Of a stretch of DNA of 64,000 nt, positions 21,050 to 51,329 are shown one piece after another; position 1 is the first letter of the stretch, and every line of letters begins with the position of its first letter. The translations under genes were made by a program, and so were the position numbers. The DNA comes from Daucus carota subsp. sativus. Its lineage: Eukaryota; Streptophyta; Magnoliopsida; Apiales; Apiaceae. The DNA lies in the NCBI RefSeq assembly GCF_001625215.2, contig NC_030383.2, forward strand, positions 62,672,949 to 62,736,948, written 5' to 3'. The notes under the pieces are model-generated. The model was not told the origin of the DNA. It ran no database searches and saw only the letters and a program-made list of their open reading frames with translations.

Positions 21050-21428
21050 TTATCCCCTTCCGCTGGGGCCATGATCTTGTATAGGATTGGGGGAAGGTCG
21101 AGGTTTAAACTGAGTGTTGATATTTCGATAGCTGTGATGAGCTTTCACTGAGAAGAAGTTCAAAGGTCGAGAAGAAGGTCGAGGTTTAAACTCCATTTTA
21201 CTATTTTCATAATCTGCATATGCAAACCAGCGTTAATAAAAAAAAGTCATCAGTCTCAAATTCACAGGTGGACTAAATAATCATCAACAATATATATATT
21301 TTTCGGCTTATAATTAAAAAAATAAAAATAGTATGTAATAAGAAACCTGCATGAGTTAAAATTAACTGCATGATGATAATGATCAACAGGACTGAATAAA
21401 TAGATCTTGTCGGAGAGGAGGAAGCCAT
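21050..21428 (-). CDS. Secreted peptide precursor a (two exons, 81 residues)
   Basis: Member of a three-gene family in this window. Exon 1 is 21428-21347 and exon 2 is 21213-21050, joined by a 133-bp phase-1 GT-AG intron. Exon 1 encodes a signal peptide (MASSSPTRSIYSVLL...THA) and exon 2 begins with the split Asp codon. The mature part carries two copies of FKPRPS: one mid-chain (EFKPRPSSRPLNFF), one near the end (FKPRPSPNPIQDHGPSGRG, the C-terminus). No cysteines are present in the mature part. The layout (signal peptide, variable region, Pro-rich conserved C-terminus) is that of post-translationally processed plant peptide hormones. PNPI recalls CLE peptides and GPSGRG recalls PIP-type peptides, but neither motif is complete. 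The gene sits 2 kb downstream of RLK1 on the same strand, immediately outside CACTA-1. Confidence 0.8.
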
Positions 21429-22593
21429 ATATAGGTTTCGGTCGTAAAAAGCCCTGTTTTGAGTGTTATACCATGAATTCATATGATTCAAGTGACTATT
21501 TATATACACCTAGGTTTATATGAACGGAAAATATGATTGGCTTCTACTCCTTTTGAAAAATGAAGCTAGCTGACGGAATTCAGGGTTTAGAAACGAAGGA
21601 AATTGTTCTGAAATTGTTCGCCTTAGCCTAATGCATGTCAAGTATAACTGCTGCCACACGCGAGTCTCTTTAATATTATATTTATATTAACACCTCTCTT
21701 ATAAATATATTATACAATATAAAAAATGAAAATAAATAAATAAATAATAATATATATATATTTAATAACTGGGTGGAAGGAATATATTATATATTTATTT
21801 AATTATTTTAGAGGGTGCATATTCATTATGGCCTAAATAAAAATATGGTTGGACAGGTTCAAGGTAAAATTCACTTTTGACAGTAATGTAATTTTTTAAA
21901 ATTTCAAGTCATTCTAAAGTAACAAAGTGAAAAATGCTTATTGTGGATGATTAAATTTTTCTATACCTTTTAAGTTAGGAAAAAGAATGTTGAAAGAGTC
22001 CAAAAAAAAATTCTCCGCTCAATTTTCTATTGTGAGAATCGGAAATTAATTATTTATGTGAGAAGTTGGGTGGACTTTAAGTCAAGGGCTTCTTATAGCT
22101 AATAATTCTCATTTTAAGCTAAAAATTGTATGTCTGTGTAATAAGTCGAAAGTGACTTAAAATAAGAAATAAGCCAGAAGTCGAATTAAAATTAAAAAAT
22201 TATATAGTTTGAGATATATTTTTTTGAGTGACTTAATTCTTTTACAACTTTGTTTATAAAAGTTACGCGTAAGTCATAAATTACGTATAAATAAATGTTA
22301 TTTTTATTATTATATTTTCAATAACTCATAAATAATTAATAAGTAAAATAATTCAAAGGACATTTCTCTTTTTCTTTTATAATGGAGGCGCTAGCTAGTT
22401 AGCATTGAACTGAAAATTCTGATGAGCTTAGACTACGTTAGTACATTACTGCCTTCTGTAATGTTGGCTTCTTTACTCATTCGAATATAGATAGTTTCAA
22501 AAGAGGTCTTGCAATTCTCTTTTGAGATGATCTTGTATTTTACTCTTACATAGGTGATCATCTTTTGCCGGATACGATTAAGTTACCGTCTTA
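21429..22593. other. AT-rich intergenic DNA
   Basis: Promoter region of peptide gene a, then low-complexity A/T sequence. No other feature recognised. Confidence 0.4.
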
Positions 22594-22957
22594 GGGACTG
22601 TTTGGGGTTGCTGTTGCAGACAGCAACAGCAGCTTTTTGCTGAAAAGCAGGTGAAAAACTGTTTGGTAAATCAAAAAGCAGCTTTTCCGAACAGCAGCTT
22701 TTAGCTAAAAAGCTGCTGTTAGAAAAAGCAGGTCCTCCCATGCTTTTGGAAAAATCTGCTTTTCAGCTTTTGCAGAATGCTGTTACAGATTTCATTATAA
22801 AACCTCACCAAAAACATTATTATTTTTATATTATAACTCAAAATAAGTAAATATCAAAAAATTACCAAACAGTTATCTGATTTCTACAACAACACTTATT
22901 TTACCAGCACTTTTTCTGACAGCACATCAATTTTTAACAGCACTACCAAACAAACCC
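22594..22957. mobile_element. MITE with TTA target duplication
   Basis: 364-bp element with inverted ends GGGACTGTTTGGGGTTGCTG and, in reverse complement, GGGTTTGTTTGGTAGTGCTG, flanked by TTA on both sides (22591-22593 and 22958-22960). The interior has many AAAAGCAGCTTTT-type palindromes. TTA target sites suggest the PIF/Harbinger group. Confidence 0.7.
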
Positions 22958-23440
22958 TTAGTCATATACGAGGAGTAAGAGCATTTTCATCAACATCTAA
23001 AATATCTTAATTTTGTAAAAAAATGCCTTATATATTATATTTTGGATTAGATGGAGTCATAAAAAAATATTATTTGTGATATCTTATTATTGTTGTCATA
23101 TTGCATTAATTACACATGGATATAATCAAGTTTTCATCCATTTTACTAGATTTTCATAGTTATTTGCTTAATAATTTACAAAAATTATGTGAGTTAATGA
23201 TAACTAACTCTTTGGATATAATATAAAAGTTGTATTGAACAAATAAGAGGACAAATATTATAAGACATTTTATTTTAACAAACAAAACTATTAAAATTGA
23301 AATTAGGAAGGAGTACTAACTTAAAAACACACTAAACAACACCCTTTCTAACCAACACCACCAAAACTCAACATGGTTTTTTTTTTTTTTTGGACAGAAA
23401 ACTCAACATGGTTTAAGCAAACGGAAACTGAATGGTGCAT
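22958..23440. other. 3' flank of RLK1
   Basis: AT-rich sequence, presumably including the RLK1 3' untranslated region. Nothing else recognised. Confidence 0.35.
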
Positions 23441-26400
23441 TTAAATCTGAGCTCCTGATAACTTCTGGGCCACAAAACGCATAGTAGGTCTTGCCCCAGG
23501 TGCGGATTGTGTACATGCTAGCGCTGCACTAACAACAAGTTTCACTTGCTCTGCTATTCTGTTGGTTGGAGGGGGAAGTCGTTTGTCTAGTGCATCCTTA
23601 GCTGCTAACTCTGGATCACTGGACAAAGTCGAAAGGAGCTCCCCAGGGTGTCTTCCCATCATTACCTCCAACGCCACGACTCCAAAGCTATAAACGTCTG
23701 ATTTAACTGTGACTAGCATACTCAAGGAGAGTTCTGCACATGAAAAAATGTAATTAGATATAGTACAGATAACGTGTTTATGCACACATGAAAATGAGAT
23801 GAAAAAATGTACCTGGTGCCATGTAGCCATAAGACCCTGCAGCATTAGTCCAGTTTGATGAGTCTGTGCCCAACAATCTTGCAGTGCCAAAATCTGAGAG
23901 CCGCGGTTCCAGTTCTGACTCGAGCAAGATGTTATTCAGTGTTACATCTCTATGCACAATAGGCGGAGAACAATCATGATGCAGGTAAGATAATGCATGA
24001 GCCAATCCAGTAACAATTTTCACTCTTGCATCCCAACTCATGTTAGCCCCCTCATCACTATACAACAACTTTCCCAGGCTACCTTTCTCGACAAATTCAT
24101 ATGCCAAGTATAGCCAATTATCCCTGGAACAGAATCCATGGAGTTTAATAATATTACGGTGCCTGACTTCTGTCAGTGTTCTAATCTCATTCTCAAAGCT
24201 CCGTCGATTATTTGTTGTAGCATCGCCAAAGTCTGTTATATCAAGTCTTTTAACCGCTATAATCACACCATTAAACAAGTTTGCCTTGTACACAGTTCCA
24301 AATCCTCCTCTTCCAATGCAGTACCTTTCACCAAAATTTTCCGTGGCCTTAACAATATCTCCAAATGTAAATTTACATTTTCTTTCCCATATCAGTGACT
24401 CGAGTTTCTTGGAACTTCTCTTGATTTTCTTATGATGCATAAAATTTCCAACAATAATAATCCCGAGAAGGAAGAGGCTGACCACTGCAACAATGACACC
24501 AATGATGACTTTCTTACTGGAATTGGATTTTTTGGATGACTTCAAAGACTTTGACCAACACAAGGGAAATCCTTTTGCATTTCCACACAAGAGTGAGTTT
24601 CCAGTGAAATTTTTTGCCGCATTTTCTTGGAAGAAGGGTATGGGGCCAGACAAGTTATTGTAAGAAAGATCAATAGTTTGCAAACTTGACAGGCCTTTAG
24701 ATAGTGAAGAAGAAATTCTACCTGATAGCTGATTATTTGAAAGATTTAAATTCTCCAAAACCTTCAGTTTTCCCAAGTTAGAAGGGATGGTGCCTGAAAG
24801 GGAATTGCTACTCAGGTCTAAATTAATATTCAACTGACGTAAGTTGCCAAGTTCAGACGGTATCTTTTCTGAAAAACTGTTCTGTCTCAAGCTCAAGCTC
24901 AACAAGCTCTCACAATTCCCAAGCTCTTTTGGTATGCTTCCCTTCATCATGTTTTTCGACAAATCAAGATGTGTGAGCTTCGACAGTTTGCCTAGACTCT
25001 TAGGTATGTTCCCAGTCAACAGGTTATTGCTCAAGTTGAGTTTCAGCATAAGGACACTATTTCCAAGTTCAGATGGAATTTCCCCTGTCAACTGATTTGA
25101 ATCCAGTTTCAGAGCTTGCAAATTCTTTAAATTTCCAAGCTCAGTTGGGACTGCACCAGAAATTTTGTTCCGTGACATCTCTATGTTTGCAAGACTTTCA
25201 CAATTTCCCCACTGGGATGAGAGTTCACCTGTAAACTTATTTCCACTCATAGAAATGTAAACAAGATTTGGATGAACACCAAATGCTTCAGAAACATTTC
25301 CAGAGAACTGGTTTTCATCGAGGCGGACTCTGCTCAGTTTGGAGCACTTCCTCAGGCACATTGGCAAAGACCCTGAAAAGTTATTTTCATTCACTAGAAA
25401 CCTTTCAAGGGCCAAACCACTGCATAGTCCTTCTGGCAATGCCCCGGAGAACTTGTTTTCGGAAAGACTGACGGTGGACAAATTGAGAATATTTTTCCCC
25501 AAGCCCTCTGGAATACTGCCAGTAAATCTGTTGGAATGAAGAAAAAGTGACTTCAAGCTTCCTAAATTAACAAGTGAATCAGGCAGCGCTCCAAAAAATT
25601 GGTTACTTTGGAGATCAAGTAATTCAAGCAGTGCTAAGTTTCCGATCTCAGGAGGAATAGTTCCACTAAGATTGTTGAACTGCAACTGCAGGACTACCAA
25701 TTTTGTGAGGTTCCCTATTGTTGCTGGAATGGAACCTTCCAGTTGGTTTCCTGACAAGTCTAATTCAAGAAGCTTTGTCAAATTTCCAATCTCTTGCGGA
25801 ACTGGTCCAGTGAGCCTATTCTGAAACAGATAGAGATCCGTGAGATTTGATAACGTACCAATTTCAGGAGGAATATTGCCAGAGAAGGTATTGTTCTCTA
25901 TGTAAAGTGAAGTTAGCTCAGACCAGTTGCTGATGGTACGAGGCGATAGCTCACCCGACAGAGAATTATCTGCTAGGTGTAGTACAGAAATATGTTCAAG
26001 ATTTTGAAAAGACAGAGGCAGAGGTCCAGTAAGCAAATTCCCTGCTAAAGCCAAAATTTTGAGCTTGGTGCAAAATCCAAGCTCATCAGGAATACTAGAG
26101 TTCAAAGAGTTATATCTGAGATCAAGTGTTTGGAGCTGCCCAAGTTGACCTATAGAAAAAGGAACATGCCCTCCAAATGAGTTGTTGTACAATTCAAGAA
26201 CTAGAAGATTATGTAAAAGGCCTATTTCATCAGGAATAATTCCTGAGAATGAATTACTTCCAATGCGAAGTTCTTTTATCTTGGAAAGCTTTGAAATATT
26301 TCTAGGCAGTGAACCTTCAAAAAAATTGAAAGAAAGATTGAGGATCTCAAGATTAGGCAAATGCAGAAACACTGATTCGGGTATGGAACCTGTCAACTTA

Positions 26401-27008
26401 TTAAGCGATAAATCAAGAAAAGTTAATTTCCTACAATTTACCACAAAAGATGGGAATTCTGAAACAAGCTCATTGTAGTATAAGTTGAGGTGTGTCAGAA
26501 GTGGCATGTTCGAAAACATGTACCACTTTGCATTTTCCATGTAGTTTGATCCCAGGTCTAGATACTGTAACTTCTGAAGATGACTAATTTGGTAAGGAAT
26601 GCTCCCACTCAAATAGTTGTCGCGAAAGTTCAAGTACTGAAGTTGTTTCAGATTTCCAATCTCTACTGGTATGACATCCGAAAAGAGGTTGCTGCTCATG
26701 TTCAAGGAAGTGAGGCTTGAAAATGCAGAAAAGTCGAAGTGAGTAAGTGTTCCATTGAGATTTTGACTGGAAAGGTTGAGCTTAGAAACTGCTCCTGCAG
26801 CATTACAGGTAATGCCAGTCCAGTTACAGAGATTTTTGAGGTTTTTTATGGACCATGAACTGAGAGAAGCAGATGGTTGTAAAGTGTTTTTCCATTTGAC
26901 AAGAGCTTCTGCCTCTGTTCTTGGTGATGATGTTATATTTTGTGCAAGTGCAGTGATGAAAAGAAGATGAAATTGAAGAAAAACAAGAAGTTTCAGAAAA
27001 TTTCCCAT
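23441..27008 (-). CDS. LRR receptor kinase, MIK2-like (RLK1), two exons
   Basis: Plasma-membrane leucine-rich-repeat receptor kinase of the MDIS1-interacting receptor like kinase 2 type, 1162 residues. Exon 1 is 27008-23813 and exon 2 is 23733-23441. The 79-bp phase-1 intron lies inside the MAPE codons of the kinase activation segment, typical of the family. Signal peptide about 1-23 (MGNFLKLLVFLQFHLLF). LRR N-cap LCNWTGITC. About 25 LRRs with LxxLxxLxLxxNxLxGxIP. Transmembrane segment about 832-855 (VIIGVIVAVVSLFLLGIII). The kinase has the glycine loop GRGGFGTVYKA, Lys in AVKRL, HRD in VHRDVTLNNILLE and DFG in SDFGTARLL, so it should be active. In Arabidopsis MIK2 perceives SCOOP peptides; the ligand here is unknown. 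The MG start is shared with RLK2. Confidence 0.94.
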
Positions 27009-29200
27009 TCCTTTGTGTATTAGTGTTTAGGAGCCAACATTATACCGGATTTATAGCGGTGCATGTGTGTACACAGACACGTTTAGGTTGTACTTGGTTG
27101 TTGGGTGAATGATTCGGCAAGAAATGAAATGAAAAATAAATTATGTTATGCTTAGTTATTACTAAATTAATTCAATTTGAGATGGAATACTGTTATCCTA
27201 ATTTTTTTTAAATCTCATTATAACAATTTTACACTAACTTAAATTTCTTTTAAAACTTTCCTCCTATCTAAACTAGTTTCAAGTAATTTTACTAATTGCA
27301 TCTCATTCTTTCCAACCAAACACAACTGTTAATTACTTATTCTAGCTTTGTAATAATTGTGGAAGGGCTAAATGACTTCATTAAATAACTGAAATTGATT
27401 TACAAAACTATTGGCGATAATTTAAAAAGTATGTTTATAGGATCTTTTTATATTAACAACTATTTTTTATTTAGACATATTAATGGTGATTTTTGTGCAT
27501 TAAAGATCATCATTATTGTATAAAAAAATTGAAATCAATAAAAATGCATCATCTACCTAAAAGATGGTTGTTAGCCTACTATGCACGCACTTGAAAATCT
27601 GATATTTATATTATCAATTAGCAATTGATATTATCATGATAAAAGTTTGTTAGTAAGTCATGATACTATTTGGTATATGTATTAATATTTTAAATTGTTA
27701 TAAATAGAATTTATCACTTTATATGTTAATAATTGACAGACAAATATAGCTCTCTATAGGAACTTGGCTATAATTATAGAAAACAGGCATGGTTGGAGAT
27801 GCTCTAACCTCCCTATCATTTTATACATTTTATAAATGATATAACATTATTATATATAGAGCGAAAGAATTGGTTTACAAATCATCCGATGGTGAGTTTT
27901 ATTATAATTTAAATTAAACAAAGCATCAAAGATTGTAACTAGCTAGGAAACCGCAAAGTTAGGGAGAATTCCATTCTTAATTCAGAAAAGAAATACAGTA
28001 AAAAGCGAAAATTATATAAAGAATATATAGAAAGATAGACCGAGAAAACCTGAAAGCACGTTGACTCGATATTTTTAATCTCAAGATTCTGTAAAACAGA
28101 TTTGGCGCGGGACAAGTCATGTTCTAAAAGAAACCAAATGGCGCGGGGACAAGTCATGTGAGAATTTTATCCAGAAAGCTCTAAAGCAGAATTATTGTGG
28201 AAATTTTGGTCTACACAAAAGCATTGTGTAATTATTAGAAATTCTACGATGATTAATGACTAACAATTATGAGTCAACAAATCGTACTAGCTGGGAAATT
28301 GTCAGCTGTGAATGTGCAAGCTTAAAATAAAGCATTTGCTGCTTAGGAGAAATAAATATAATATTTCTCAAACACTGGAATATCTCTGCGCTGTATGATT
28401 ATTTTCAATATATAATATTTTATTATTTATATTTTAATTTTATTACTTTTGTATATTTTTGTGTAGTATTATAATTATGACTTAGTGAGTCTGCACAAAA
28501 AATAATCACAAGCTATGGCCTTAGAACTGACCCATATTTCTGGAAAGATTTAATTACAAAACGTATTTCCCTTTAATTCAGATAAATTATAGTTTATTAT
28601 ACATCTGAATTTTATAGAATTGCAAAATAGATCTCTTGACATGTTTTAGTGACACACCTTGAATCATTTTGGTCGATTTTTGTCTACCTATCAATGTGAA
28701 ATTTAAAAAGGTGAAATTAATAGATTTAATTTTTCTATTGTACTCTTTTAATTCAACCTAATGATCGGTCAGAATAGACGAAAAATGGGTCAAAAGAGTT
28801 CAACATATAAAATTTAGGTAAAAAAGATTAATTAGACCAAAATTACGAGATGTGTTTTGAAAATAACTGTTTTCGAAATAACATAACCAACTGTAGAGAG
28901 GAAAACCGACCATCTTCATATTTTTTGACATGCCTCAACCTATATATCTTATGATGAACTCATTTCGAAATTCCTATCTTATGTAACTAATTCTTGCGTG
29001 GAACTCAAATTTATTTGAGTTGTAACCGGATCACGTATCTTATAATGAGTTTTTAAGAATTCTTATCTTATGTAACCAGTTCTAGATGGAAACCTAAATT
29101 TACTTAATTTCTAACAGGATCCTCGCGAAATCATTAGCTATTTGGCTAAACTTGAAATCCTCGATATTGGTGATATTCTTTTCAAAACAATATTCACAAT
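27009..29200. other. Upstream region of RLK1
   Basis: Promoter-proximal and intergenic AT-rich DNA. About 28080-28160 holds two copies of a GGCGCGGGACAAGTCATGT motif about 60 bases apart. No gene is recognised. Confidence 0.35.
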
Positions 29201-29388
29201 GGGTTTGTCTAGTGTGTGCTCATTGTCACGTGCTAAGCATTAAATCTATGAAATTGGAGGGTTTTGATTGGTGTGATTATTGTAAATGCAGGGTCCACCA
29301 TTATTAAAGAAACTAAGCCAATAGAAACCATTCAATTGCATCAATTTTGATGCTTATTGTGTAACCATGAGCACATCATAAAAAAATC
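29201..29388. mobile_element. MITE, GGGTTTGTCTA family, copy A
   Basis: Inverted ends: left GGGTTTGTCTAGTGTGTGCTC and GCTAAGCATTAAA; right, in reverse complement, TATGATGTGCTCATGG and AATAAGCATCAAAA. Related copies lie at 34943-35122 and 41530-44405. Non-coding. Confidence 0.6.
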
Positions 29389-29705
29389 GATTCACAAAAT
29401 ACATCTAATTTCTCCAAGCTAATAGAAGTTTAATTGGGAAATGATAAATTTACGGGAGGCCAATTCATAAATTCATGGGAGACCAATTTCTAAATTTTAT
29501 TTAGTAAATAAAAAAAATTCTCAACAGTTCAATTCCAAGAGAGATTGTGAAGTATTTTTTTTTAAAAGTGGAATTATACAAATTCAATAATGAAAGAAAT
29601 ATAACATCCAAAAAAATAATAGAGTCAGAACAAATATAAAACTGATTGTGAATTTAAATTAGAATTATGCTCTGAACAGTTGTTTAGATCCACGAAAAAC
29701 ATATA

Positions 29706-29920
29706 CCCCCTCCGTCCCACTATATTTTTTTCATCGTAGAACGTAATCTCAACACGCATTTTAAAACTCTTATTAAGTATAGTTTCATAACTTATTTGAT
29801 TATTTTTTTTTCAAATAGAAATTCAATGTTTAGACTTTTATTTAGAAAAAAAAATATATAAACAGAAGCCTTAAAATGTGCGTCGTCATCCATCCCCGAG
29901 CATAAAGAATCTGGTGGGAG
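29706..29920. mobile_element. Degenerate Stowaway-like MITE
   Basis: Left end CCCCCTCCGTCCCACTAT and right end GGTGGGAG, each flanked by TA. Interior AT-rich, non-coding. Confidence 0.5.
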
Positions 29921-30253
29921 TACCTTTGTGATATTTATGGAGTAATTAGCATTTTGCACCTCTTATTTGATTTGATCTGAAATATAAAACTATGTTTGTT
30001 TACATGTTTTAGTTTTTAACTCACTTCATTTTACATGTGCATTTGACTAATTTTTTTTGAAATTGACTTTACTTTTAGTATGAAAAAGGGTAGAATAGTG
30101 TTTAAGCGTGTTTCCACGCTCACGGCCCGGCTGACCTTTTAAAATACTAGATCATACAGGGTTAAGAAGAAAAAGAGGACAAATTTTGCACAATCGAGAG
30201 TTGTGGATTGCAAAGTGATATATAGGTTGGGATAATCTTCTCCGACACTGATT

Positions 30254-30520
30254 TTAATTTGAGATCATCTTCTTCAAATTTGTGACGCCAGAATGGTTAG
30301 TCTTGACTAATAAGATAGAAACAGCTTTTTCATCAAGCAGGTTTGGAACCCTACACCCTGTACAAAGGACGTCTCCCTTCAAAAACTTCATTTGGTCTTT
30401 ATATCGTGTTATCGAAGACCTCGTTTCAAAAAAATACGTCGCCATGAAAGTTATACCGAGAGTAACTAATAATCGGCCCAGAACATTCCACCAATACAAC
30501 CAACAAATCAAACCATACAA
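30254..30520 (-). CDS. Unrecognised 88-codon ORF, doubtful
   Basis: Open frame with a hydrophobic N-terminal stretch (CWLYWWNVLGRLLVTLGITF) followed by a charged region with two Cys (VLCTGCRVPN). I recognise no family, there is no paralogue in the window, and an 80-codon frame overlaps it on the other strand. It begins about 160 bases downstream of the peptide b stop. It could be chance or a transposon remnant; listed only because of its composition and position. Confidence 0.15.
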   Translation of the reverse strand: MYGLICWLYWWNVLGRLLVTLGITFMATYFFETRSSITRYKDQMKFLKGDVLCTGCRVPNLLDEKAVSILLVKTNHSGVTNLKKMISN

Positions 30521-30683
30521 CTAACGATTGACTGATACAATATAGTTAAATTTTGCTAACATACTGATCGAGTGAGTACCATGTAAGCTAATAGTATACA
30601 TAGATATATGCTGTGGGAATCGACAGTATTTGAACTTAATTCTTATAACAAATATTCCCTGTGCCAAGCCTGGCCTAGAGGGG

Positions 30684-31328
30684 TTAATTATGTATTGGAT
30701 CCGGGGCACGTCTCGGTTTAAGTTTAAACTCGGATCTTGGATCGGACATTTCTCTCAGTTTAAACCGTTCAAAGTTTACGGGAGCCCCGTGAAGCGGTAC
30801 AGCGAGTTCTCGATTTCTCGAATCTGCAAGTACAATTTACAAAACCGAGTTAAAAAAGAATCTAATATATTCACAATTAGTACAATTCCTAATACATTCT
30901 CGCAATATAATTATGTAGGTTAAGTGATATAAATTTACTCGAACTAATGCTTAATAACAAATAAAATATTTAATGAGGCCGTTTGAGTTAGTTTCAAAGA
31001 AGTGACTTCTTGCTTATAATAAAGAAGTGGGGTAGATGTGAGAAATAAATAAGTTAATAAAGTGTATGGAAAAAAAGCAGAAGCTGTGAAAGAGAAGCTA
31101 GCATTCTCAACTTTTTAAAAATGCTTCTACTTATTTACACAAACGAGTTAAGAGAAGCAGAAGCCAGAAGCACCTTCTGCTTTTACGAAACAAACAGACT
31201 CAATATCTGTTAATTGAAATTAAAGTAGAAAAGGGAAGAGAAGCAAGAAATTAACCTGCATGAGTTGAAATCATGATGATGATAATTAGGACAGAATAAA
31301 TAGATCTCGCCAAAGAGGAGGAAGCCAT
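30684..31328 (-). CDS. Secreted peptide precursor b with CLE-like C-terminus (two exons, 70 residues)
   Basis: Paralogue of peptide gene a. Exon 1 is 31328-31256 (signal peptide MASSSLARSIYSVLI...STHA) and exon 2 is 30823-30684, after a CTTGCAG acceptor. The intron is again phase 1 and creates the same Asp codon, and the combined frame is open for exactly 71 codons. The intron (30824-31255) contains a 227-bp MITE, which separates the exons and hides the gene from simple ORF searches. The mature region contains RFKLREM and ends FKLKPRRAPDPIHN. The last six residues, PDPIHN, equal the end of many CLE dodecapeptides (consensus RxVPxGPxPxHN), and K-P-R is shared with peptides a and c. The gene lies between RLK1 and RLK2, same strand. 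That the product is a signalling peptide is inference. Confidence 0.8.
30975..31201. mobile_element. MITE in the intron of peptide gene b
   Basis: Inverted ends GAGGCCGTTTGAGTTAG (left) and GAGTCTGTTTGTTTCG (right, reverse complement), with internal AGAAGCAGAAGC/GCTTCT palindromes. About 227 bp, non-coding. Target duplication not resolved. Confidence 0.5.
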
Positions 31329-32094
31329 ATAGGATTCTCTATTTCTCTCTGACCGTGTTAGGGTTCGCCAATCTTCAAAACCTTAAATTTATTTCGTTCA
31401 GGTAACTCCATATTATAATATCCTAATATGCTAATATGAATAGGCTAATATGAATGAACAGCAGCCATTATAGACTTTAATGCTCCTAAGAACATACCGA
31501 AGGTTCGCTAAAGCGAAATATGACCCCATTGAGGATATTTTCAGAATTAAAAGGAGAACTTTTGAAGTTAGTAAAATAACTAGCTAGCACCTCACTTTTG
31601 ACTAGATAAATTATATTTCAATTAAAATAATTGAGTAAGTTGCGAGGACCACAAATGAAAATACAATTCTTATATACTTTTATGAACTAATTTATACTGT
31701 TTTGGGAATAAATTTTGAGATATTCAGTATTTTTCTTACAAATTATATTTCACAAACATAATTTTAGGTTAATTTCAGGTTATATTCTATATAAAGTTTG
31801 ATGTCTTATTCAATTTTGTTGAAATTTTCAAGAATAATGACCTTAATATTGATTAGTTATATTTTATGTGAAGTTGAAGAGATATCAGAATTTTAAATTT
31901 TTACTATATAATATAAGAAATTTATAAAATATATCTGGCCGGAAATTGTACAGTATTGTAACTTTGGCTTAAATCTTAAATTCATGTGTTCATGAACTTT
32001 GAAGTGACTATTATATAAACGTGGGTTTACATAAGCCTAGTGTAAAAGCAATAATAAAGTCAAAGCATTTGTTAATCCTCTTTTGTTTCTTCTA
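31329..32094. other. Upstream region of peptide gene b
   Basis: AT-rich promoter and intergenic DNA; nothing else recognised. Confidence 0.35.
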
Positions 32095-32374
32095 CTCCCT
32101 CCGTCCCATTCATTTCTTTACACTTTCTTTTTTGGATGTCCCAGTCAATTCTTTACATTTCAAAACTTACCAAAATTAGTCAATGGGTCCCACCACTTCT
32201 CCACTTTTCTTTCCTTTTCACACTACTTTTACTCCACTATCTTCTTTTTATACATTAAAAATCAATGGGTCACACCACTTTACCCACTTTTCTTCCTTTT
32301 TTCCACTACTTTATGCATATTCCTTGACCTCCGTGCCCAACCCATTTGATAAGAAATGGGTGGGACGGAGGGAG
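32095..32374. mobile_element. Stowaway MITE (280 bp)
   Basis: Near-perfect inverted ends CTCCCTCCGTCCCATTCATT and their complement, with a TA target duplication (32093-32094, 32375-32376). Non-coding. Confidence 0.88.
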
Positions 32375-32467
32375 TATTATTCATCATCTTCATTTAGTAA
32401 TCTTGGTCAACAGAGCTAGTTACTTGTTTAGACAGAAGATCAATCAAAACAAGAATATTGAATAGTA

Positions 32468-32769
32468 CTCCCTCCGTCTCAATTTATAGGTCCATTTTGA
32501 AAAAAAAATTTGTCCCAAAACACATGTCCCTCTCTTGTTTCAATACAAATTTATCTACATATTAATTGTGATTTTTTTGAAACTCAACATTATTTTCATT
32601 TCTCAATGCACTAATCCCTATATTTATTGTGATTTTTTTGAAACTCAACTATATTCTTACTTATCAATGCACTAATTAATGATACACGAGATAAGATTCT
32701 ATCTAACCAACTTTTTTCTTAATATGCGTGTTTATTCCAAAATGGACCTATAAATTGAGACGGAGGGAG
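32468..32769. mobile_element. Stowaway MITE (302 bp)
   Basis: Inverted ends CTCCCTCCGTCTCAATTTAT (about 30 bp matched) with TA on both sides (32466-32467, 32770-32771). Internal 45-bp direct repeat of the 'TGTGATTTTTTTGAAACTCAAC' type. Non-coding. Confidence 0.88.

Positions 32770-34156: not shown

Positions 34157-34157
<1 letters not shown>
32770..34157. other. AT-rich intergenic DNA
   Basis: No gene recognised. A partial MITE-like end (GGCCGTTTAGGTAAACTTTT, about 33411) resembles the element at 30975. Confidence 0.35.

Positions 34158-34198
<41 letters not shown>
34158..34198. repeat. (TA)n microsatellite
   Basis: About 20 TA units in a row. Confidence 0.95.
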
Positions 34199-34201
<3 letters not shown>

Positions 34202-34942
34202 TTTAGTCAATGTGTCGTCAATTTGACTAGTCAAAAGTCAAAAGGGACATGTACATTCAGACGGAGGTCTTCCCTCCCAATTTATTTGTGTTGTTTGACT
34301 TTTTTGTCAAATCGACCAAATTTTGACTGAAATTTTACATATATAAAATAATTAGAAAAAATTATGAAAAATATATTACTAGAATCTACATCTATTCTAC
34401 TTTAAAATGTATTTTTTTTTTCAATTTTGAAGATTCATGTATGAATAATTACTAATTATCAGCCAGATCAATTTGACCACAAAAAGTCAAGACAGATATA
34501 TAAATTATATTGGGGGTACTAAACAAAGATCGGCAAGCCCTACCTTCTGAACCTAGCTTGTCACTGCTACTAAGTGCATAGCTTGGTTTACTCTGCAAAA
34601 AATCAAATCAGAAACTATGAACCACTGTCGTAACAATTTTTTATCAGTATCTACAACTGCAACTACAAAAACAAAAATTATTCGATTATACTCTGAACTG
34701 TTATTTTATTTATATAAAATATTAATATTTTATTTTTACAATTTAAAATATTTACTTATTTTAAACATTCCAGCCAATGACTGCGTGATGGTAGGAGTCC
34801 GGTAGTGACGGCAAGTGGAGAGAAGACGTATACACTGGTAGTAATTGACCTAAAGTAATCCAAAATATTATATCTTTAACATTCAACAAGTTGTTATCGA
34901 AAACAATACTAACGTTACTCGGATATTACAGAATATAGTATA
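34199..34942. other. Intergenic DNA
   Basis: Contains a degenerate 'TTGTTTGACTTTTTTGTCAAA' type repeat (about 34260-34500). No supported gene. Confidence 0.3.
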
Positions 34943-35122
34943 GGGTTTGTCTAGAGTGTATTTATGGGCACATGCTAAGTATCAAATTCTATAAATTTGG
35001 TGGATTTTATGATTGGTGCGGTGGTTGAATCTGTTGGCGGTCCATCATTATAAAGAATCAAAATCACTCAAACTTATAAATTTTAGTGCTTAACATGTGC
35101 CAATGAGGCACCATAGGAAAAC
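34943..35122. mobile_element. MITE, GGGTTTGTCTA family, copy B
   Basis: Inverted ends GGGTTTGTCTAGAGTGTATT and, in reverse complement, CGGTTTTCCTATGGTGCC, with matching GGCACATGCTAAG subterminal blocks. It lies just beyond the stop codon of RLK2, probably in its 3' untranslated region. Confidence 0.6.
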
Positions 35123-35172
35123 CGTACAATATAAAGACATTAGACTTTGCTTTAAATGACCAATTAACCCTT

Positions 35173-38100
35173 TTAGGTTTCAGGAGCATATGTACTGACT
35201 TCCACATGAGTTTTTCTTGATAGTTCTTGCGCCACAGAATGCATGGTAGGTCTCGACTCTGGTGTGGAATGTGTACATGCTAGCGCTGCACTGATAACAA
35301 CTTTCACAACCTCTTCTGTTCTCTCTGTCGGCGGTGGAAGTCGTTGATCAAGCACATCCTTCAGAGCTAAGTCAGAATTTCCGGACAAAGTTGAAAGGAA
35401 CTCCCCAGGGTGTCTTCCCATGAATATCTCCAATGTCACAACTCCAAAGCTATAAACATCTGATTTAGCCGTCACTAGCATACTCAAGGCAAGTTCTCCA
35501 CATAAAAAAAACAAACATACATGTTAGTAACAGATGTACAGAGAATTATTAAATGTACCACATTAAGAACACATGATAAAGGATAATGAAATTTAATTAA
35601 GAGTAAACTTCAGAGTTGTGGCCAAACTTTACACCGATTTCCAAAAAGTTGGCCAGAGTTCCAAATTCTCAGAAAGGTGGGCCAAATTTTGGCTCTGCTT
35701 TTTAAAAGTGTGGCTCCCGTAAAACAGGAGCCACACTTTTAAAAGTGGAGCCAAAGTTTGGCCACCTTTGTGAGATTTTGGAACTCATTTTTACCCCTCT
35801 GCCGGTTACTCCCGTTAGTGACATTTAACGGGAGCCACATTTTTAAAAAGCGGAGCCAAAGTTTGGCAACCTTTCTAAGAATTTGGAACTCTAGCCAATT
35901 TGAAAATCGGTGTAAATTTTGGCCACAACTTTGAAGTTTACTCGTAAAATAATTAAGTACCTGGCGCCATGTAGCCATATGACCCTGCAACATTAGTCCA
36001 GTTTGAGGATTCGGTACTTAAAAATCTTGCGGTGCCAAAATCCGAGAGCCTTGGCTCCAGATCTGGCTCGAGCAAGATATTATTCAGTGATATATCTCTA
36101 TGCACAATAGTAGGAGAGCAATCATGATGCAAGTAAGAAAGTGCATGAGCCAATCCTTTAACAATTCTTACCCTTGTGTCCCAACTTAATTCAGAAGGCC
36201 CTCCATCACTGTACAACAATGTCCCTAAGCTGCCTCTCTCGACAAATTTATATATTAAGTAAAGGGAATTGTCCTTGGAACAGAATCCATGAAGTTTGAT
36301 GATATTCCGGTGCCTGACTTCGGTCAAGGTTCGTATCTCGTTTTCAAAGCTCCATCGATTATTTGCCAAAACATCACTGGAGTCTGTTATATTGAGCCTT
36401 TTAACTGCTACAATCTCACCATTAAACAACTTGGCCTTGTATACAGTTCCGAATCCTCCTCTTCCAATGCAGTACCTTTCACTAAAATCTTCAGTGGCTG
36501 TAATAATATCTTCAAATGTAAATTTTCCTTCTCTTTCCCAAATCAGTGACATAATTTGTCCTGAAATGAATGTCTCTAAATCCCTTTTCTTGATTTTCAT
36601 ATGTCTCCTTAAACATCCAAAAGTAACAATCCAGAAAACTACGAGGCTGCCCACTGCAACAAAGATACCGATGAGAATTTTTTTACTGGACTTGGATGAC
36701 TTCAGAGGCGTAGACAGACAACGAGACAATCCTTTTGCATCACCACACAGAAGGGAGTTCCCAATGAAATATTTTGCAACTTTTCGTTGGAACGAGGGTA
36801 TAGGGCCAGACAAGTTATTGTAGGAAAAATCAATCGTTTCCAGACTAAACATATCAGCAGAGAGTGAAGAAAAAATACTACCCGAGAGTTGATTATGTGA
36901 GAGATTCAAATCCATCAAAACCTTCAATTTCCCCAAGTTAGAAGGAATGGTCCCTGAAAGTGAATTGCTACTCAGGTCCAAATTAATTTGCAACTGACGC
37001 AAATTTCCAAGTTCTGAGGGTATCTCTTTTGAAAAACTGTTCTGACTCAAGCTCAAGCTTAATAAGCTTTCACAATTCCCAAGCTCTTTTGGTATTCTTC
37101 CATTCATGTTGTTTGTAGACAAATCAAGATGGTTGAGCTTTGTTAATTTGCCTAAACTCCGAGGGATGTTTCCAGTCAAATAATTATTACTCAAGTTGAG
37201 TTTCAACAACAGGACTAAGTTTCCCAGTTCCTTTGGAATCTCACCTGTCAACTCATTCGAATCCAGCTCTAAAGCTTGTAATTTTTTTAAGTTTCCAAGC
37301 TCCGCTGGTACTAGGCCTGAAAGTCTGTTTTTAGAAATCTCTATGTTTGTAAGACTTTCACACTTACCCCACTGGGATGAGAGTTCACCCATAAAGTTAT
37401 TGCCACTTAGAGAGATAAAAACAAGATTCGGGTGAAAACCAAATGCTTCAGAAATATTTCCAGAGAACTGGTTGTCCTCGAGACGGACTCTACTCAATTT
37501 AGAGCAGTTTCTTAAGCAAATCGGCAAAGCCCCAGAAAAATTGTTTCCAATTACTGTAAATAATTCGAGGGCCAAGCCACTGCACAATCCCTCTGGCACC
37601 GCACCAGAGAAGCTGTTGTATGACAAGTCAACAACAGATAAAAAGGAAGTATTTTTTCCTAAGTTCGTCGGAATGCTGCCATGAAATCTGTTGGTGAACA
37701 AAGAAAGTGTCTGCAAGTTACTCAAATTAGTAATGGAATCTGGAACCTCTCCATACATTTGGTTATGGCTGAGATCAAGAATTTCAAGCAGTGGTAAGTT
37801 ACCAATCTCAAGTGGAATGGTTCCGCTAAGATTATTGTTAAACAGATGTAAGAGTGTCAATTTGGTCAGGTTCCCTATTGTTGATGGAATTGAATCTTCA
37901 AGATGGTTTCCTGACAAGTCTAATTCCAGAAGCTCATTCAACTTACCAATCTCTCTGGGAATTGGTCCTTTGAGTTTATTATTGAATAGATAAAGGTATG
38001 TGAGACTCGACAACGTACCAATTTCAGCAGGAATATTACCAGTGATGGCATTTTTTTCTAGGTACAGATTTGTTAACAAAGACCAGTTGCCGATGAAATG

Positions 38101-39090
38101 TGGTGAGAGCTCACCAGACAGCAAATTATCTGACAGGACTAGTACAGAAATTTGTGTAAGATTTGAAAAGGACCAAGGCAAAGGCCCAGTGAGCGAATTG
38201 GTAGCTAAAGCCAAGAAACTGAGCTTGGTGCAAAACCCAAGCTCAGGAGGAATAGTAGAGTTCAAATAATTTTCTCGGAGATCAAGTGACTGAAGATCTC
38301 TAAGTTGACCTATAGAAGAAGGAATCTTTCCTGTAAATGAGTTGTTATACAATTCAAGAACTTGAAGATTATATAGAAGACCCAGACTATAAGGAAGAGA
38401 CCCTGATAACTTATTTCTTCCGAAATAAAGTTCTTTTACCTTGGAAAGCTTGGAAACATTTTCTGGCAATGGCCCTTCAAAAAAATTATCATTAAGCAGG
38501 ACGGATTCAAGATTAGATAAACGAAACACTGAATCAGGAATGCGTCCTGTCAACAAATTAATCGACAGATCAAGGTAAGTTAAGTTGACATACTGATCCA
38601 ACAGGGACCAGCTTAGATTATCTAAGTAGTTTGAGCCCAAGCTAAAATGTTCTAGTTTATGAAGTTGGCCAATTTGGTAAGGAATGGTACCGTTAAGACT
38701 GTTATTGAAAAAGCTCAAGTACTGAAGCTGTGTTAAATTTCCGATTCCTACAGGAATACTACTTGAAAAAAGATTGTTGCTCAAGTCCAAGGAAGTGAGG
38801 TTTGGAAATGAAGAGAACCTGAAGTGAGCAAGTGTGCCGTAGTGTTCTTGATAGGAAATGTTGAGCTTCGAGATTGTTCCTGCACCACAAGTAATGCCAG
38901 TCCAGTTACAAAGGTCGTCGAGATTGTCTAGGGACCATGAATTGAGAGAATCAGATGGTAGTAAGCTGCTCTTCCATTTGACGAGAGCTTCTGCCTCAGT
39001 TCTTGGTGATGATGTTATTTTTTGTGGAAGTATAAAAATGAAGAGAACATGAAATAGTAGTAAAACATAAGGATTGCGCAGTGTTCCCAT
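35173..39090 (-). CDS. LRR receptor kinase, MIK2-like (RLK2), two exons
   Basis: Paralogue of RLK1 with the same architecture, 1150 residues. Exon 1 is 39090-35961 and exon 2 is 35495-35173. The phase-1 intron is at the identical site but 465 bp long because it contains a palindromic MITE. Signal peptide MGTLRNPYVLLLFHVLFIF. The start at 39090 was chosen because RLK1 also begins with MG; in-frame ATGs at 39108 and further upstream exist. LRR N-cap LCNWTGITC. About 24 LRRs. Transmembrane segment about 800-822 (ILIGIFVAVGSLVVFWIVTF). Kinase with GRGGFGTVYKA, AVKRL, VHRDISLNNILLE and SDFGTARFL, all catalytic residues kept. The C-terminal tail KTHVEVSTYAPET is longer than that of RLK1. Confidence 0.94.
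35601..35942. mobile_element. Palindromic MITE in the RLK2 intron
   Basis: Inverted ends GAGTAAACTTCAGAGTTGTGG / GAGTAAACTTCAAAGTTGTGG with about 100 bp of matching subterminal sequence (CCAAACTTTACACCGATTT). Inside is a perfect 18-bp stem (TTTTAAAAGTGTGGCTCC and its complement) around 35699-35741. The element makes up most of the intron between the two kinase exons. Confidence 0.75.
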
Positions 39091-39773
39091 TCCTATGTAT
39101 GTTTTCATATTTGTGAGTTTGTTTCTGTGTTCTTTGTGGGAAGCTAATAATATATCATGGAATTTATATATACTTAGTGTTAGGCAGGGTTGTTGATGAA
39201 CCGAACCAAACCGAGATTTGTTGACGAACCGAACCAAGCCAAGGTTTGACCGAACAATCTTAATAATTTATTGTGGCAAACCAAGCGAACCAAGCAATAG
39301 ATACAGAACATGTGTTCGAGTTTGAAATCAAGAAACTTAGAGGCGCTGGCAACATGCTAGCTCGACTCGAACTCATTTTCTTAACCAACACATTTTAATG
39401 TTCGAGCTTGAACTCCGTTCTAAACGAACTAAACAGAACTCTATTGAGCCGAATTCAAACTTGTTCGCGAAAATTTCAATTCATAAACAGACGTAACACT
39501 AGTGTACAGTGTACTTGATATTGTCCTATATCCTATATATTTAAATTAATATTAATTACCCGACCAAATCGCCAACGCCTTCTGTTTGAAATATCCTCAT
39601 ATTTGTGATATTTTGGATTCAAAGTATCAATCGACGGCCGGAGAACTTTTTTTTCCTCATCAAATGTATATATTTGTTTTGTGTTATACGTGCATAATGT
39701 TAAATGTGATAGGCAATATATTCGCTTTCATAACCCATCATTCCATAATCGTGAATTTAATTAAATGTGTAGT
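39091..39773. other. Upstream region of RLK2
   Basis: A TATATATA-type TATA box lies near 39160-39172. At 39190-39470 there is a decayed repeat rich in CGAACCGAACCAA and GCTCGAACTC units, as in many dispersed plant repeats. No gene. Confidence 0.4.
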
Positions 39774-40136
39774 CAGTGGCGGATCTAAAGTTTACGTCAT
39801 GGGGACATGGGTCCCCAGTCAATTCTCAGCCCATACTCGTATATATATCATTAGATTTAGTTAGTGTTAGTTGGCCATTACCTCTATTAATATTAATACT
39901 GAGAATATATTATGTAAGTATTTTTATTAAATCCCAGCCAATTAAGAACAATCAAAATTATAGTTGGATTAATTCATAATAACCTATCAAAGCCCATCAA
40001 TAATGTGGTTGGATTAATTTATAATAAGGTGAAACAACATATGTATAAGCCATTTTTCATCGTATCATAATTGTCTTTAAAAAAATTTTGTTAATTATTA
40101 TGTCCCCTATAAAATTCATTCATGGGTTCGCCACTG
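39774..40136. mobile_element. hAT-type MITE (363 bp)
   Basis: Short inverted ends CAGTGGCGGATC and GGTTCGCCACTG. Flanked by an 8-bp duplication with one mismatch (TGTGTAGT 39766-39773, TGTATAGT 40137-40144). The right end plus flank is repeated once more directly downstream (about 40150-40232). Non-coding. Confidence 0.75.
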
Positions 40137-40232
40137 TGTATAGTGCATATTGTAAAAAAAAATTGTTAATTATTATGCCCGTATAAAATTCTTTCATGGG
40201 TTTGCCACTGTGTATAGTGCATATTGTTGAAA

Positions 40233-41529
40233 TGTGGCATGCATGTATACCACAATAATTCATAATTCATTAGATCTCAAGTCAAGAGTTGGGACCAAAG
40301 GACCCGTACATACCAGGCTGACTTCATAGTCAGTCGTGCTCATCATTGTATAGGAGCAATTTCTTAAGCCCACTCCTTTCAAAATCAAAAGGAAATTCTA
40401 CCCAATAGCTTCTTATGAATGATGTGAAGCCATGACTTTTAACTTTTAAGGATCACTAGAGTTTGTTAAACCAGCGGACTTGGACCGAGTTGTATTAATT
40501 CCAGTCACTCTCCGTTTGCGTTAAATGTAATCTTGAAACTTTGATAACATTAGTAGTCCATTTTGATTTTGATACCAAATCAAACAAGTTCAAAATCTTT
40601 AAACAGACCAATTATAGTTTGAATGAGGTTTGAAGTATTCTTTTTTTGATTCAGGTTTGCAGTTCCTCAGTTCATTTCAAGATTTAGACTTTACAAACAT
40701 TAATTTTTTTGATTTTCAAATTTTCTGAATTTGACAGATCATTGTAGCTATTATCTCTGTCAACATTTTATTAATTAATTGCAGACCATTCCTAGAACGA
40801 ATTATGTTCACCATGTGTTATCGGGAAGAGGCACCATGAGGTCAAATTCTGATCGCTTCTTGTTACCGGAAAGAAGAAACACCATTCTAATTAATACAAT
40901 CGAAATTAATTTCGACCGTATGTGGTCGAACATATATATTTTCCGATTGGGTTTCTAATTTCCACTAGCTTATATTCAACCACCTCTTTTGGGTCGAAAA
41001 TAACCGTTAACGGCAGAAAATAGCTATTTTCGATTAGAATCTGAGTCGAAAAATAACCGCTTTTATTATAGTGCGGGAAGAGACACCATTCTAGAGGTTG
41101 AATTTCAGCCACTTTTTGTTACTCGAAATGAGGTATAGTCGTAGGAATATTATCTCTATATTAGTGCAGCAAGATTTCTACTTTAACATTTAAAAGAATT
41201 TCACCAAGTTTAAGTTGTGTTTTTTTTTTTATGTCACTAGATGTGTAAAACCTGATCCACTGCATAACTATGGTTTTTGAATCATTCTTTCCTTGAGTTT
41301 GATTTAAACAGACCAATAGTCCAATTTAACATTTATGCATTCTGCCGAACAGTTGATGTATAATTCAAAGTCATATTCATAATAGTTTGACATTGATAAA
41401 GCCCTAATGGAAATGGACAAAGGAAATTGCAAATCTAAATCGTGGAAAGAACTGGTTACACCTCTTTCACCCTATTGGTCTGTTTAGATATTTGAACACA
41501 ATAAACACGCAAGAGACAAGTATTAAATG
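40233..41529. other. AT-rich intergenic DNA
   Basis: At 40900-41075 a GTCGAAAATAACCG-type repeat ends in TATTATAGTG, possibly a decayed CACTA end. Nothing coding recognised. Confidence 0.3.
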
Positions 41530-42482
41530 AACGGTTCTTCTATGGTGCCTGTGAGCACACAATAAATACTAACTAGTTGATAACCCGTGCCAAGCACGGG
41601 TTTAAATAAAATTTTAAAATTTTTATTTATTAAAAGAATAATGTCTTTTTTTAATTACATCATCATATTTTTATTATACCTATTTAAACTATTGTTTCTA
41701 AATGATATTTAAATTATTGTTATTTAATATAAGACTTTCTATATATTAAAATTTGATCATACTTTAAATTTATTTCATAATAATATGAGTCACTGTTCTA
41801 TTGAGTCCACAAAATAAGAGTATTGGCGTCCAAAATTATTTAAACATATTCTACTCGTTTCAATTTTAATTTTTTTAGTCTACAATATTTGTAAACATCT
41901 TACAATTTGCAGGTTATGTTCCACAATATAATCGTTGCAATCAAAAGATAAAACAATTATATTATAAATCACTAAACACTATATATGTTTTAAAATATAA
42001 CTCATAAGTAGAATAATGATATTAATGATTTTTAATGTTGAAAGATGTTAATGATTATTGATAATTATATATTTAAAACTACTTAAAGATGGTAAATTAT
42101 ATATATAATTTGAATAATTAAAGATATTATTTATGATTAAACTAAAAGATTATGACCGGTACATACTGCGGATTAAATGCGGACTCTATGGAACTTAACT
42201 CTAACAGTATGTTTTATTTTAGTAAAATTACTATGTTGTTTGATGATTTTTAAATTGTGAAAATAATATTCAAAATCAACACATATAAGTTCGTTTATAG
42301 CATCTTTAATCTCGAACAAAAATTCAAATTTTTAAGTCGCAATTATTTTATTCATTTAATAGGCAAACATTATATATAATTCTAGTTGGAGTTTTTGCAA
42401 ATCTAACTGTTGTTGTAGTTGTTTAATAAATTGATATTGTAGTTTGCCAAAATTAATTAACTTTCCAAAAGTAATTTGATAT

Positions 42483-43085
42483 CAAATATTTTGACATATG
42501 TCTAGAGTTTCGGTTCTTTTATTTTATGTTGCAATATGGATAATGACTTCATTTTCTTTGAGTTTCTATTTATCAAGTCAGTGTTAACACCACATTATTC
42601 GTCTTTATCGCAATTTTCTGAAAAACACTGAATGATAATAATAATTATTATTAAAAAATATATGACCAAGTTTTTTGGTACTTTGGTATCAATATTGAAT
42701 CTTATTTATTTTAATTCTGATATATGATAGAAATTTAATAGATCTGTTTCGTAAATTAAATTGTATGAGTTTTAAAAGTTAAAACGAATATTTGACGTAT
42801 GTCTACAGTTTCGGTTCTTTTATTATATGTTGCAATATGAACAATGACTTCATTTTTTTGGAGTTTACATTTGTCAAGTCAGTGTTACCACCGCCTTATT
42901 GGTGTTTATCGCAATCTTCTTAAAAACACTGAATGATAATAATATTTATTATTAAAAAATATATGATCAAATTTTTTGGTACTTTGGTATCAATATTGAA
43001 TCTTGTTTATTTTAATTCTGAAACATGATAGAAGGTTTATAAATTTATTTCGTAAATTAAATTGTATGAGTTTTAAAATTTAAAA
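42483..43085. repeat. Tandem duplication within the Helitron, period about 300 bp
   Basis: Two copies (from about 42485 and about 42788) share CGGTTCTTTTAT, AATGACTTCATTTT, AAAAACACTGAATGATAATAA and TTTTTTGGTACTTTGGTATC. Confidence 0.85.
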
Positions 43086-43689
43086 CGAATAATTTCGTTG
43101 ACATTATTATTCTATTAATAGGATATTATATTAACATCAATATAAACTCCTTATTTATTTGAACTCTGAAACATGATAAAGATTTATAGAGTTGTTCTGT
43201 ATATTAAATTATTTGAGTTTTAAAAAATTAAAACAAATAATTTTGTTGGTAATATATTTTTATTAGTGAGAGAATTATTATAACATAAAATCCTGTCAAA
43301 TATAGAATTTTTTTGATAATAGTAATAATTTTTAAATAAAAAATAATATGATGATAGTCAAATTTTGATATGAATTTTATAGAACTGTTTCATAAGTTAA
43401 ATTGTTAGCGATTTAACTATGTGGATAGGATAAATGTTATATTACAAAATCCTAAACACCATATAAGTCTTTTTATAGTAGTATAATAATCTTAACCAAT
43501 ATTCAAATTTTTAATAATAAAATCCGAATCAATATAGAAGTCTTTTCATAATTATATAATAATAATTATAAAACTCTAAAAATGTATAATAATAAGTATA
43601 AAATCCTAACAATATGAAAATCTTTTCATAATTCTATAATGATTATTGTTATTAAATAAAAAATTTATATAACATTGTCCTAATCAATA

Positions 43690-44258
43690 TTGAAGTTTTT
43701 AATAATAAAATTCTAATCAATACAGAAGTCTTTCACTGTCCTAATGAATATTGAAGTCTTTAATAATAAAATTATATTCAATATAGAATTCTTAAAATCT
43801 TAATGAATATGAAAGTGACCAAATTTTGGTACTTTGGGTACCGATGTTCCACTGAAAAGTGGTTTCGCTTATTAATAAAAAGTTTTAATAATAAAATTCT
43901 AATCAATACAAAAGTCTTTCACTGTCCTAATGAATATTGAGGTCTTTAATAATAAAATTATATTCAATATAGAATTCTTAAAATCCTAATGAATATGAAA
44001 GTGACCAAATTTTGGTACTTTGGGTACCGATGTTCCACTGAAAAGTGGTTTCGCTTATTAATAAAAGGTTTTAATAATAAAATTCTAATCAATACAGAAG
44101 TCTTTCACTGTCCTAATGAATATTGAGGTCTTTAATAATAAAATTATATTCAATATAGAATTCTTAAAATCCTAATGAATATGAAAGTGACCAAATTTTG
44201 GTACTTTGGGTACCGATGTTCCACTGAAAAGTGGTTTCGCTTATTAATAAAGGGTATT
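43690..44258. repeat. Three-copy tandem array, period about 178 bp, at the Helitron 5' end
   Basis: Three nearly identical units, each ending in GGGTACCGATGTTCCACTG AAAAGTGG TTTCGCTTATTAATAAA (hairpin CCACT-GAAA-AGTGG). On the minus strand every unit begins like a Helitron 5' end, so the array looks like repeated copies of the element's own start. Confidence 0.9.
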
Positions 44259-44460
44259 GATTCTCATGAATTTCGGGCATTTTTATTGGTCGTCTAATCA
44301 TGAATATGGATAGCCCTCTACATTCACACCAACACCGCCAATAAAAATATATCAAACTGATCAAATTTAGTGTTTGTTGTGTGTCCTTGGAGACACATTA
44401 GAAAAACTATTAAAAAAAAGGTCAAGCAAATTAATATTGATCATTTAACTGGGGTCGAAC

Positions 44461-44749
44461 TAGAGATGCACAAAAAATCTGTTCAGGCTGGATCCAAACC
44501 GGGCCAAAAAAATCCTGATTTTTTAAAAACAGATCGGGTCCGGGGTTTTTTGAAAATACTAGGCCTGTTATACTTATAAAAGTTCCGTATTTTTTTAAAA
44601 ATCTGGATAAAATCCGGATTTTTTAAAAATATTAAGCCTATTTTAGACTCTCGGACCGGGCTGGACCAGATCAGATTTTTTTTTCAGATAGAGTTTTTAA
44701 GATTTTTTCCAGATGGGATTTCAGATTTCAGAGTTTCTGCACATCTCTA
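44461..44749. mobile_element. hAT-type MITE (289 bp)
   Basis: Inverted ends TAGAGATGCACA / TGCACATCTCTA. 8-bp target duplication with one mismatch (GGTCGAAC 44453-44460, GGTCAAAC 44750-44757). The interior is rich in AAAAAATCCGGAT-type palindromes. Confidence 0.8.
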
Positions 44750-44855
44750 GGTCAAACTCCCAAGTCTTAGATACTCGTTCAAACTGACAGCTTGTGCTGT
44801 ATGTAAGTTATTATAGTACTATATAATAAAACCCTGGCGTTTAAGAAACCTGTAC

Positions 44856-45262
44856 ATGGCCTCCTCCTCTCGGGCAAGTATTGTTTATTTGACTCTCATC
44901 ATCATGATCTTCATCTCGCTGTTGGTTTTAACTCATGCAGGTTCGTATACCTTTATCTTGCACTCGACATTGAGTCTTGAAATCTAATGAGCTTTTATTT
45001 GACATGTATACTCCCTCTGTCCCACTCATTTTTGTACTTTTTTTTACTGCTCGACATATATTTTAATGCTCCTATAAAATTTGGCATCAGACCATTATTA
45101 TAGCTGTTTTTAGTTAAGTTATTTGTGTTTTATTTTCCAGATGAACGCAGAATGTTATTAACACGTGGCAAGCCAAGATCTTTAGCAGGGCCTAAATTGA
45201 AACCCCGGCTGCCTGGTCATGCGCCGATGATCTCTAATTATAATCCTGGGGCTCATGGCTAA
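44856..45262 (+). CDS. Secreted peptide precursor c (two exons, 68 residues)
   Basis: Third paralogue of the family, on the plus strand. Exon 1 is 44856-44940 and exon 2 is 45141-45262, with a 200-bp phase-1 intron that contains a partial Stowaway end (about 45010). The signal peptide MASSSRASIVYLTLII...LTHA is followed by the same split Asp codon. The mature region has GKPRSLAGPKLKPRLPGHAP and ends YNPGAHG. The motif (F/L)KPR and a Pro/Gly-rich end are shared with peptides a and b; the terminal residues differ, which would suit different receptor specificities. No cysteines in the mature part. The frame spans both exons without a stop. Confidence 0.8.
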
Positions 45263-51213: not shown

Positions 51214-51329
51214 AAATTCTATTATAGAATACATATAAAACCTGATTCTGATACAGAATACTATAACATATATATGTTTTAAGTAATTTAACACTTAAAA
51301 TTTGATGAAGAAAGTATATTTTCGAAACT

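Follow-up and report, generated by a model that had tools for sequence, protein, structure and literature searches.

MIK2-like receptors are widespread and expanded in many plants, and SCOOP peptides act via MIK2 and a BAK1/SERK co-receptor. Another plant system with adjoining ligand and receptor genes is SCR-SRK at the S locus of Brassicaceae, in which SCR is cysteine-rich, SRK is an S-domain kinase, and the pairs are alleles at one locus. The SCOOPs were described as limited to Brassicaceae, and their SxS motif was reported to be essential, by Hou et al. 2021 (PMC8448819). According to that paper and Rhodes et al. 2021 (PMC7846792), MIK2 perceives divergent peptides, and their genes are tandemly clustered, some with two motif copies. 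The latter source also states that the ends of CLE, Pep, IDA, PIP, and CEP peptides differ from those of SCOOPs, and it reports no obvious MIK2 orthologue in Nicotiana benthamiana.

The locus analyzed here lies in a stretch of 64,000 nucleotides (the window), in which three two-exon genes, g1, g2, and g3, are interleaved with LRR receptor genes, R1 to R4. As at the S locus, receptor genes adjoin genes for ligands, here candidate ones; unlike SCR-SRK, g1-g3 are cysteine-free, the receptors are of the LRR type, and the genes are tandem paralogues. Similar to PROSCOOPs as outlined in the available sections of PMC7846792 and PMC8448819, g1-g3 encode a signal peptide, a short propeptide, and a short C-terminal motif, and they share with SCOOPs the two motif copies (found in some SCOOPs), the divergence of members, and the tandem clustering. 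However, they carry a KPR-x4-P motif in place of SxS, and their interleaving with receptor genes is a linkage that the same sections do not mention for SCOOP genes. We read g1-g3 as candidate ligands perceived by some MIK2-clade receptor, with a probability of about 0.38.

Gene models and first exons

The exons of the three genes are as follows.

21347..21428, minus strand: g1 exon 1 (82 nt), signal-peptide-like MASSSPTRSIYSVLLIIIIMQLILTHA
21050..21213, minus strand: g1 exon 2, motifs FKPRPSSRP and FKPRPSPNP, C-terminus PSGRG
31256..31328, minus strand: g2 exon 1 (73 nt), signal-peptide-like MASSSLARSIYSVLIIIIMISTHA
30684..30823, minus strand: g2 exon 2, motifs FKLREMSDP and LKPRRAPDP, C-terminus PDPIHN
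44856..44940, plus strand: g3 exon 1 (85 nt), signal-peptide-like MASSSRASIVYLTLIIMIFISLLVLTHA
45141..45262, plus strand: g3 exon 2, motifs GKPRSLAGP and LKPRLPGHAP, C-terminus NPGAHG

The two-exon genes claimed by the sequence-only reading were present at these positions, and their spliced products consisted of 81 (g1), 70 (g2), and 68 (g3) residues. The phase-1 intron with an Asp junction codon that it described was found in all three, with GT-AG introns of 133, 432, and 200 nt in g1, g2, and g3, respectively, the donor CAG/GT, and the acceptors TGCAG/A, TGCAG/A, and TCCAG/A; intron stops interrupt all three frames when unspliced. The claim of a signal peptide ending in THA also agreed with our results, exon 1 being hydrophobic and signal-peptide-like in each gene, with a best 12-residue Kyte-Doolittle mean of 2.8-3.4. 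By hydropathy, THA end, and length (68-81 residues), g1-g3 encode short precursors with an N-terminal signal peptide, as SCOOP genes do. The g2 intron (30824-31255) exceeds the g1 and g3 introns two- to threefold in length and carries a short inverted repeat (31073-31086 and 31171-31184), perhaps a small element inserted there.

In a self-comparison of the window with a cut-off of E 1e-4, the exon-1 DNA of g1 matched that of g2 (80.7% identity over 88 columns, E 2.7e-14) and that of g3 (74.7% over 99 columns, E 1.7e-10). The likeness between g2 and g3 was weak and fell below this cut-off, the best piece in a separate tblastn search having 76% identity and E 0.004. Both matches of g1 begin 3-11 bases 5′ of the ATG and stop 3 bases beyond the donor, and the introns and outer flanks of g1 gave no match to g2 or g3 at E 1e-4 in the same self-comparison. 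The differences in exon-1 length among the genes are multiples of three. Exon-1 dN/dS was 0.48 for g1-g2, 1.2 for g1-g3, and 0.41 for g2-g3, with about 20 synonymous sites each; the value of 1.2, obtained from few sites, was counted against the reading of these genes as secreted ligands.

A blind scan of the window for a signal-peptide exon, a phase-1 intron, and a short second exon yielded 19 exon pairs from 6 start sites, and all 6 pairs containing KPR came from g1, g2, and g3. The pairs from the three other start sites were all KPR-free and had no MASSS start or CAG/GT donor. Simulated first-order Markov windows (n = 15) gave 0-14 exon pairs each, none with KPR. The likeness among these genes exceeds that expected by chance. 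On the basis of tblastn and the blind scans, the presence of a further peptide gene (a fourth one) was rejected for this window. A KPDPLHNYGF run followed by a stop (41248-41280, plus strand), with a CLE-like end, was also discarded; it has no matching exon 1, its nearest acceptor, judged by eye, is not of phase 1, and it is probably due to chance.

Second exons and the KPR motif

The KPR near the C-terminus, which the sequence-only reading had noticed, is common to g1, g2, and g3 and is the sole 3-mer found in all three second exons; some 3-mer was common to all three in 2.0% of 100,000 shuffles. The best three-way 9-mer, searched for without a motif (KPRPSPNPI, KPRRAPDPI, and KPRSLAGPK), was reached by 0/300 shuffles, and the best three-way 6-mer by 10/300. 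Pairwise local scores of the second exons were reached by 42/5000 (g1-g2), 1148/5000 (g1-g3), and 201/5000 (g2-g3) shuffles. The second exons diverge far more than the first exons, and their pairwise likeness is weak.

In each precursor, the motif [FLG]K[PL]R-x(4,5)-P occurs twice, and five of the six copies have a gap of exactly four residues. Two copies occurred in 0/20,000 shuffles of each gene, the motif having been defined post hoc. When no motif was predefined, the internal repeat was significant in g1 (0/2000) and not in g2 (214/2000) or g3 (686/2000). Over 11 aligned C-terminal codons, synonymous versus non-synonymous changes per site were 5.0/8.5 versus 5.0/24.5, 7.5/8.6 versus 7.5/24.4, and 8.0/8.6 versus 6.0/24.4 in the three pairs. 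Synonymous change is thus denser than non-synonymous change in every pair, in a very short stretch and under a protein-based alignment, which favors this outcome. This codon alignment used the last KPR of g3, whereas the three-way 9-mer uses its first. None of the three second exons contains SxS, and SCOOP membership of g1-g3 was ruled out.

Neighboring receptor genes

The receptor genes, with approximate limits for R1 and R2, are as follows.

23441..27008, minus strand: R1, MIK2-related LRR receptor kinase, kinase over two exons (the second at about 23441-23750)
35215..39267, minus strand: R2, second LRR receptor kinase, ectodomain 70% identical to that of R1
52092..55162, plus strand: R3, LRR gene with in-frame stops, R1-like part to 53837 and a further LRR part from 53951
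63873..64000, plus strand: R4, start of a fourth receptor, about 124 bases, cut by the window end

Four MIK2-like receptors had been proposed at this locus, which holds for R1 and R2, with their LRR and kinase parts, but not in full for the others, since R3 is broken and kinase-less and R4 comprises only about 124 bases. Judging from their sequences, R1 and R2 are MIK2-related LRR receptor kinases, and the term MIK2 clade rests on pairwise likeness. R3 gave no kinase match and has in-frame stops from about 53834 to 53951; its LRR part from 53951 looks like a receptor-like protein, and R3 is either a pseudogene or a fusion of a MIK2-type beginning with a different LRR end. Upstream of R4, translation from about 63783 revealed no Met in its frame.

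R1 shared 43% identity with Arabidopsis MIK2 (182/427 aligned columns, ectodomain only), which is below the value of at least 60% identity to Arabidopsis MIK2 that defines a MIK2 orthologue in Hou et al. 2021 (PMC8448819). R1 resembles MIK2 in its N-terminal cap, an RVR..N.FSG..SEAFGV.P block, and its fold, but differs in having about five extra LRRs N-terminal to the aligned region, in which R1 371 corresponds to MIK2 240. At the positions of MIK2 D246 and N268, which we take to be those reading SxS and whose letters were confirmed at these places in the MIK2 PDB chain, the residues are E and Y in both R1 and R2, and Q and F in R3, respectively. The absence of SxS, together with these differences in R1-R3, argues that g1-g3 are not SCOOPs, and the SCOOP code is lacking at this locus on the peptide and the receptor side alike. 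An RxR pair, which presumably contacts the C-terminus of CLE-, RGF-, IDA-, PIP-, and CEP-type peptides, is kept in R1 and R2 and is KxR in R3.

In the three receptor pairs, dN on the concave versus the variable convex face was 0.34 versus 0.23, 0.38 versus 0.27, and 0.43 versus 0.22, with uncorrected p values of 0.013, 0.048, and 0.0003, respectively, from Fisher tests on estimated sites in pairs that are not independent. The corresponding dN/dS values were 0.44 versus 0.42 (R1-R2), 0.55 versus 0.84 (R1-R3), and 1.06 versus 0.41 (R2-R3), and the concave excess is clear only in R2-R3, a pair that includes the broken R3. As evidence of a ligand-binding surface, the concave-face signal is weak, and the dN/dS values do not demonstrate positive selection.

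Linkage, possible function, and surroundings of the locus

The peptide genes sit between receptor genes, as the sequence-only reading had stated, but the alternation itself is unremarkable; 10/35 orders of three peptide and four receptor genes have no adjacent peptide genes, and alternation was accordingly rejected as evidence of function. The exon-1 dS values of the peptide genes (0.36, 0.29, and 0.61) are on the order of the receptor dS values (0.61, 0.57, and 0.59), which is what joint duplication would produce. Any tandemly duplicated block ends up with its genes interleaved, so the linkage is equally well explained without a ligand function. The proposed ligand interpretation stands in part: the linkage and the resemblance to secreted precursors are consistent with it, whereas tandem duplication accounts for the linkage without it.

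The three genes probably encode secreted signaling-type peptide precursors. The secreted propeptide would be cut to release one or two [FLG]KPR-x4-P peptides, which would dock onto the concave side of an LRR receptor kinase and bring in a SERK protein as co-receptor. The receptors may be of the MIK2 clade and perhaps encoded by the adjoining genes, and peptide and receptor genes may have been duplicated as a block; these steps are less certain. Perception by the MIK2 clade is suggested by the linkage, the receptor class, and the joint absence of the SCOOP code, and it is weakened because known MIK2 ligands need SxS, which g1-g3 lack. That these very neighboring receptors perceive the peptides seems unlikely, and less likely still is a linked, co-duplicating module in which pairs of undescribed KPR-x4-P ligands and MIK2-clade receptors diverge together. 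If true, such a module would mean that, outside Brassicaceae, the MIK2 clade reads a second peptide code, one free of SxS. Candidate ligands located beside MIK2-like receptors would allow perception to be tested directly with a few synthetic peptides, and the linkage would offer a handle on ligand-receptor co-evolution.

The precursors encoded by g1-g3 also resemble those of CLE, RGF, IDA, PIP, and CEP peptides, which are likewise secreted, lack cysteine, and carry a proline-rich motif at the C-terminus, and g2 ends in HN, as CLE does. The CLE domain has 12-13 residues (R-x-V-P-x-G-P-N/D-P-L/I-H-N), the PIP core is SGPS, the CEP core is of the PGHSPGVGH type, and the RGF motif is led by DY. 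It is possible, although on the unlikely side, that g1-g3 belong to another signal class (CLE-, RGF-, PIP-, or CEP-like) perceived by other LRR receptors, their linkage with R1-R4 being a by-product of tandem duplication. The ends PDPIHN (g2), PSGRG (g1), and PGAHG (g3) are consistent with this, PDPIHN and PNPIQD of g1 resembling the CLE end, and the gene order requires no function. However, when compared by eye with the CLE consensus, LKPRRAPDPIHN of g2 fits the last six positions only, FKPRPSPNPIQD of g1 fits partly, and g3 does not fit; P4 and G6 are missing in g2, and CLE membership was rejected. Comparison by eye with the PIP, CEP, and RGF consensuses gave just short C-terminal likenesses, without the RGF DY, the PIP core, or the CEP core. 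None of g1-g3 clearly fits the CLE, RGF, IDA, PIP, or CEP consensus, and KPR is not known to be part of any of them. Searches of Pfam, NCBIfam, and PDB at E up to 10 gave no match to g1-g3, in libraries that may hold no models of such families.

The second exons are short, basic (K+R 9, 10, and 8 versus D+E 3, 6, and 1 in g1, g2, and g3, respectively), proline-rich (8, 6, and 6 P), and without cysteine. This composition would suit secreted non-signaling products such as basic proline-rich antimicrobial peptides, a reading that we regard as quite improbable, since a short motif kept amid divergence with the nearly fixed KPR-x4-P spacing seems better suited to recognition. That g1-g3 are decaying, unexpressed copies of a former gene, as the disruption of R3 (the next receptor after g3) and the strong divergence of the second exons might suggest, is more doubtful still, given that every frame stays open across both exons, that the splice sites are intact, and that exon 1 changes in length by threes.

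Several other elements were observed in the window. An open frame at 15517-18093 (minus strand) encodes a TNP2-type transposase with the Pfam domains Transposase_21, DUF4218, and Transpos_assoc, and CGGTCGGTT-type repeats occur near it at 14167-14358, with similar ones at 18882-19026. A ACCGACCG-type sequence lies downstream of g1 at about 20560-20870. At 47722-51230, a repeat of about 200-250 bp is present in four copies in both orientations with 78-89% identity, perhaps a miniature transposable element, and a pectinesterase fragment (48093-48725, minus strand) lies amid these copies. Upstream of g3, 42485-44251 contains tandem arrays with units of 301 bp (2 copies) and 186 bp (3 copies, 98% matches).
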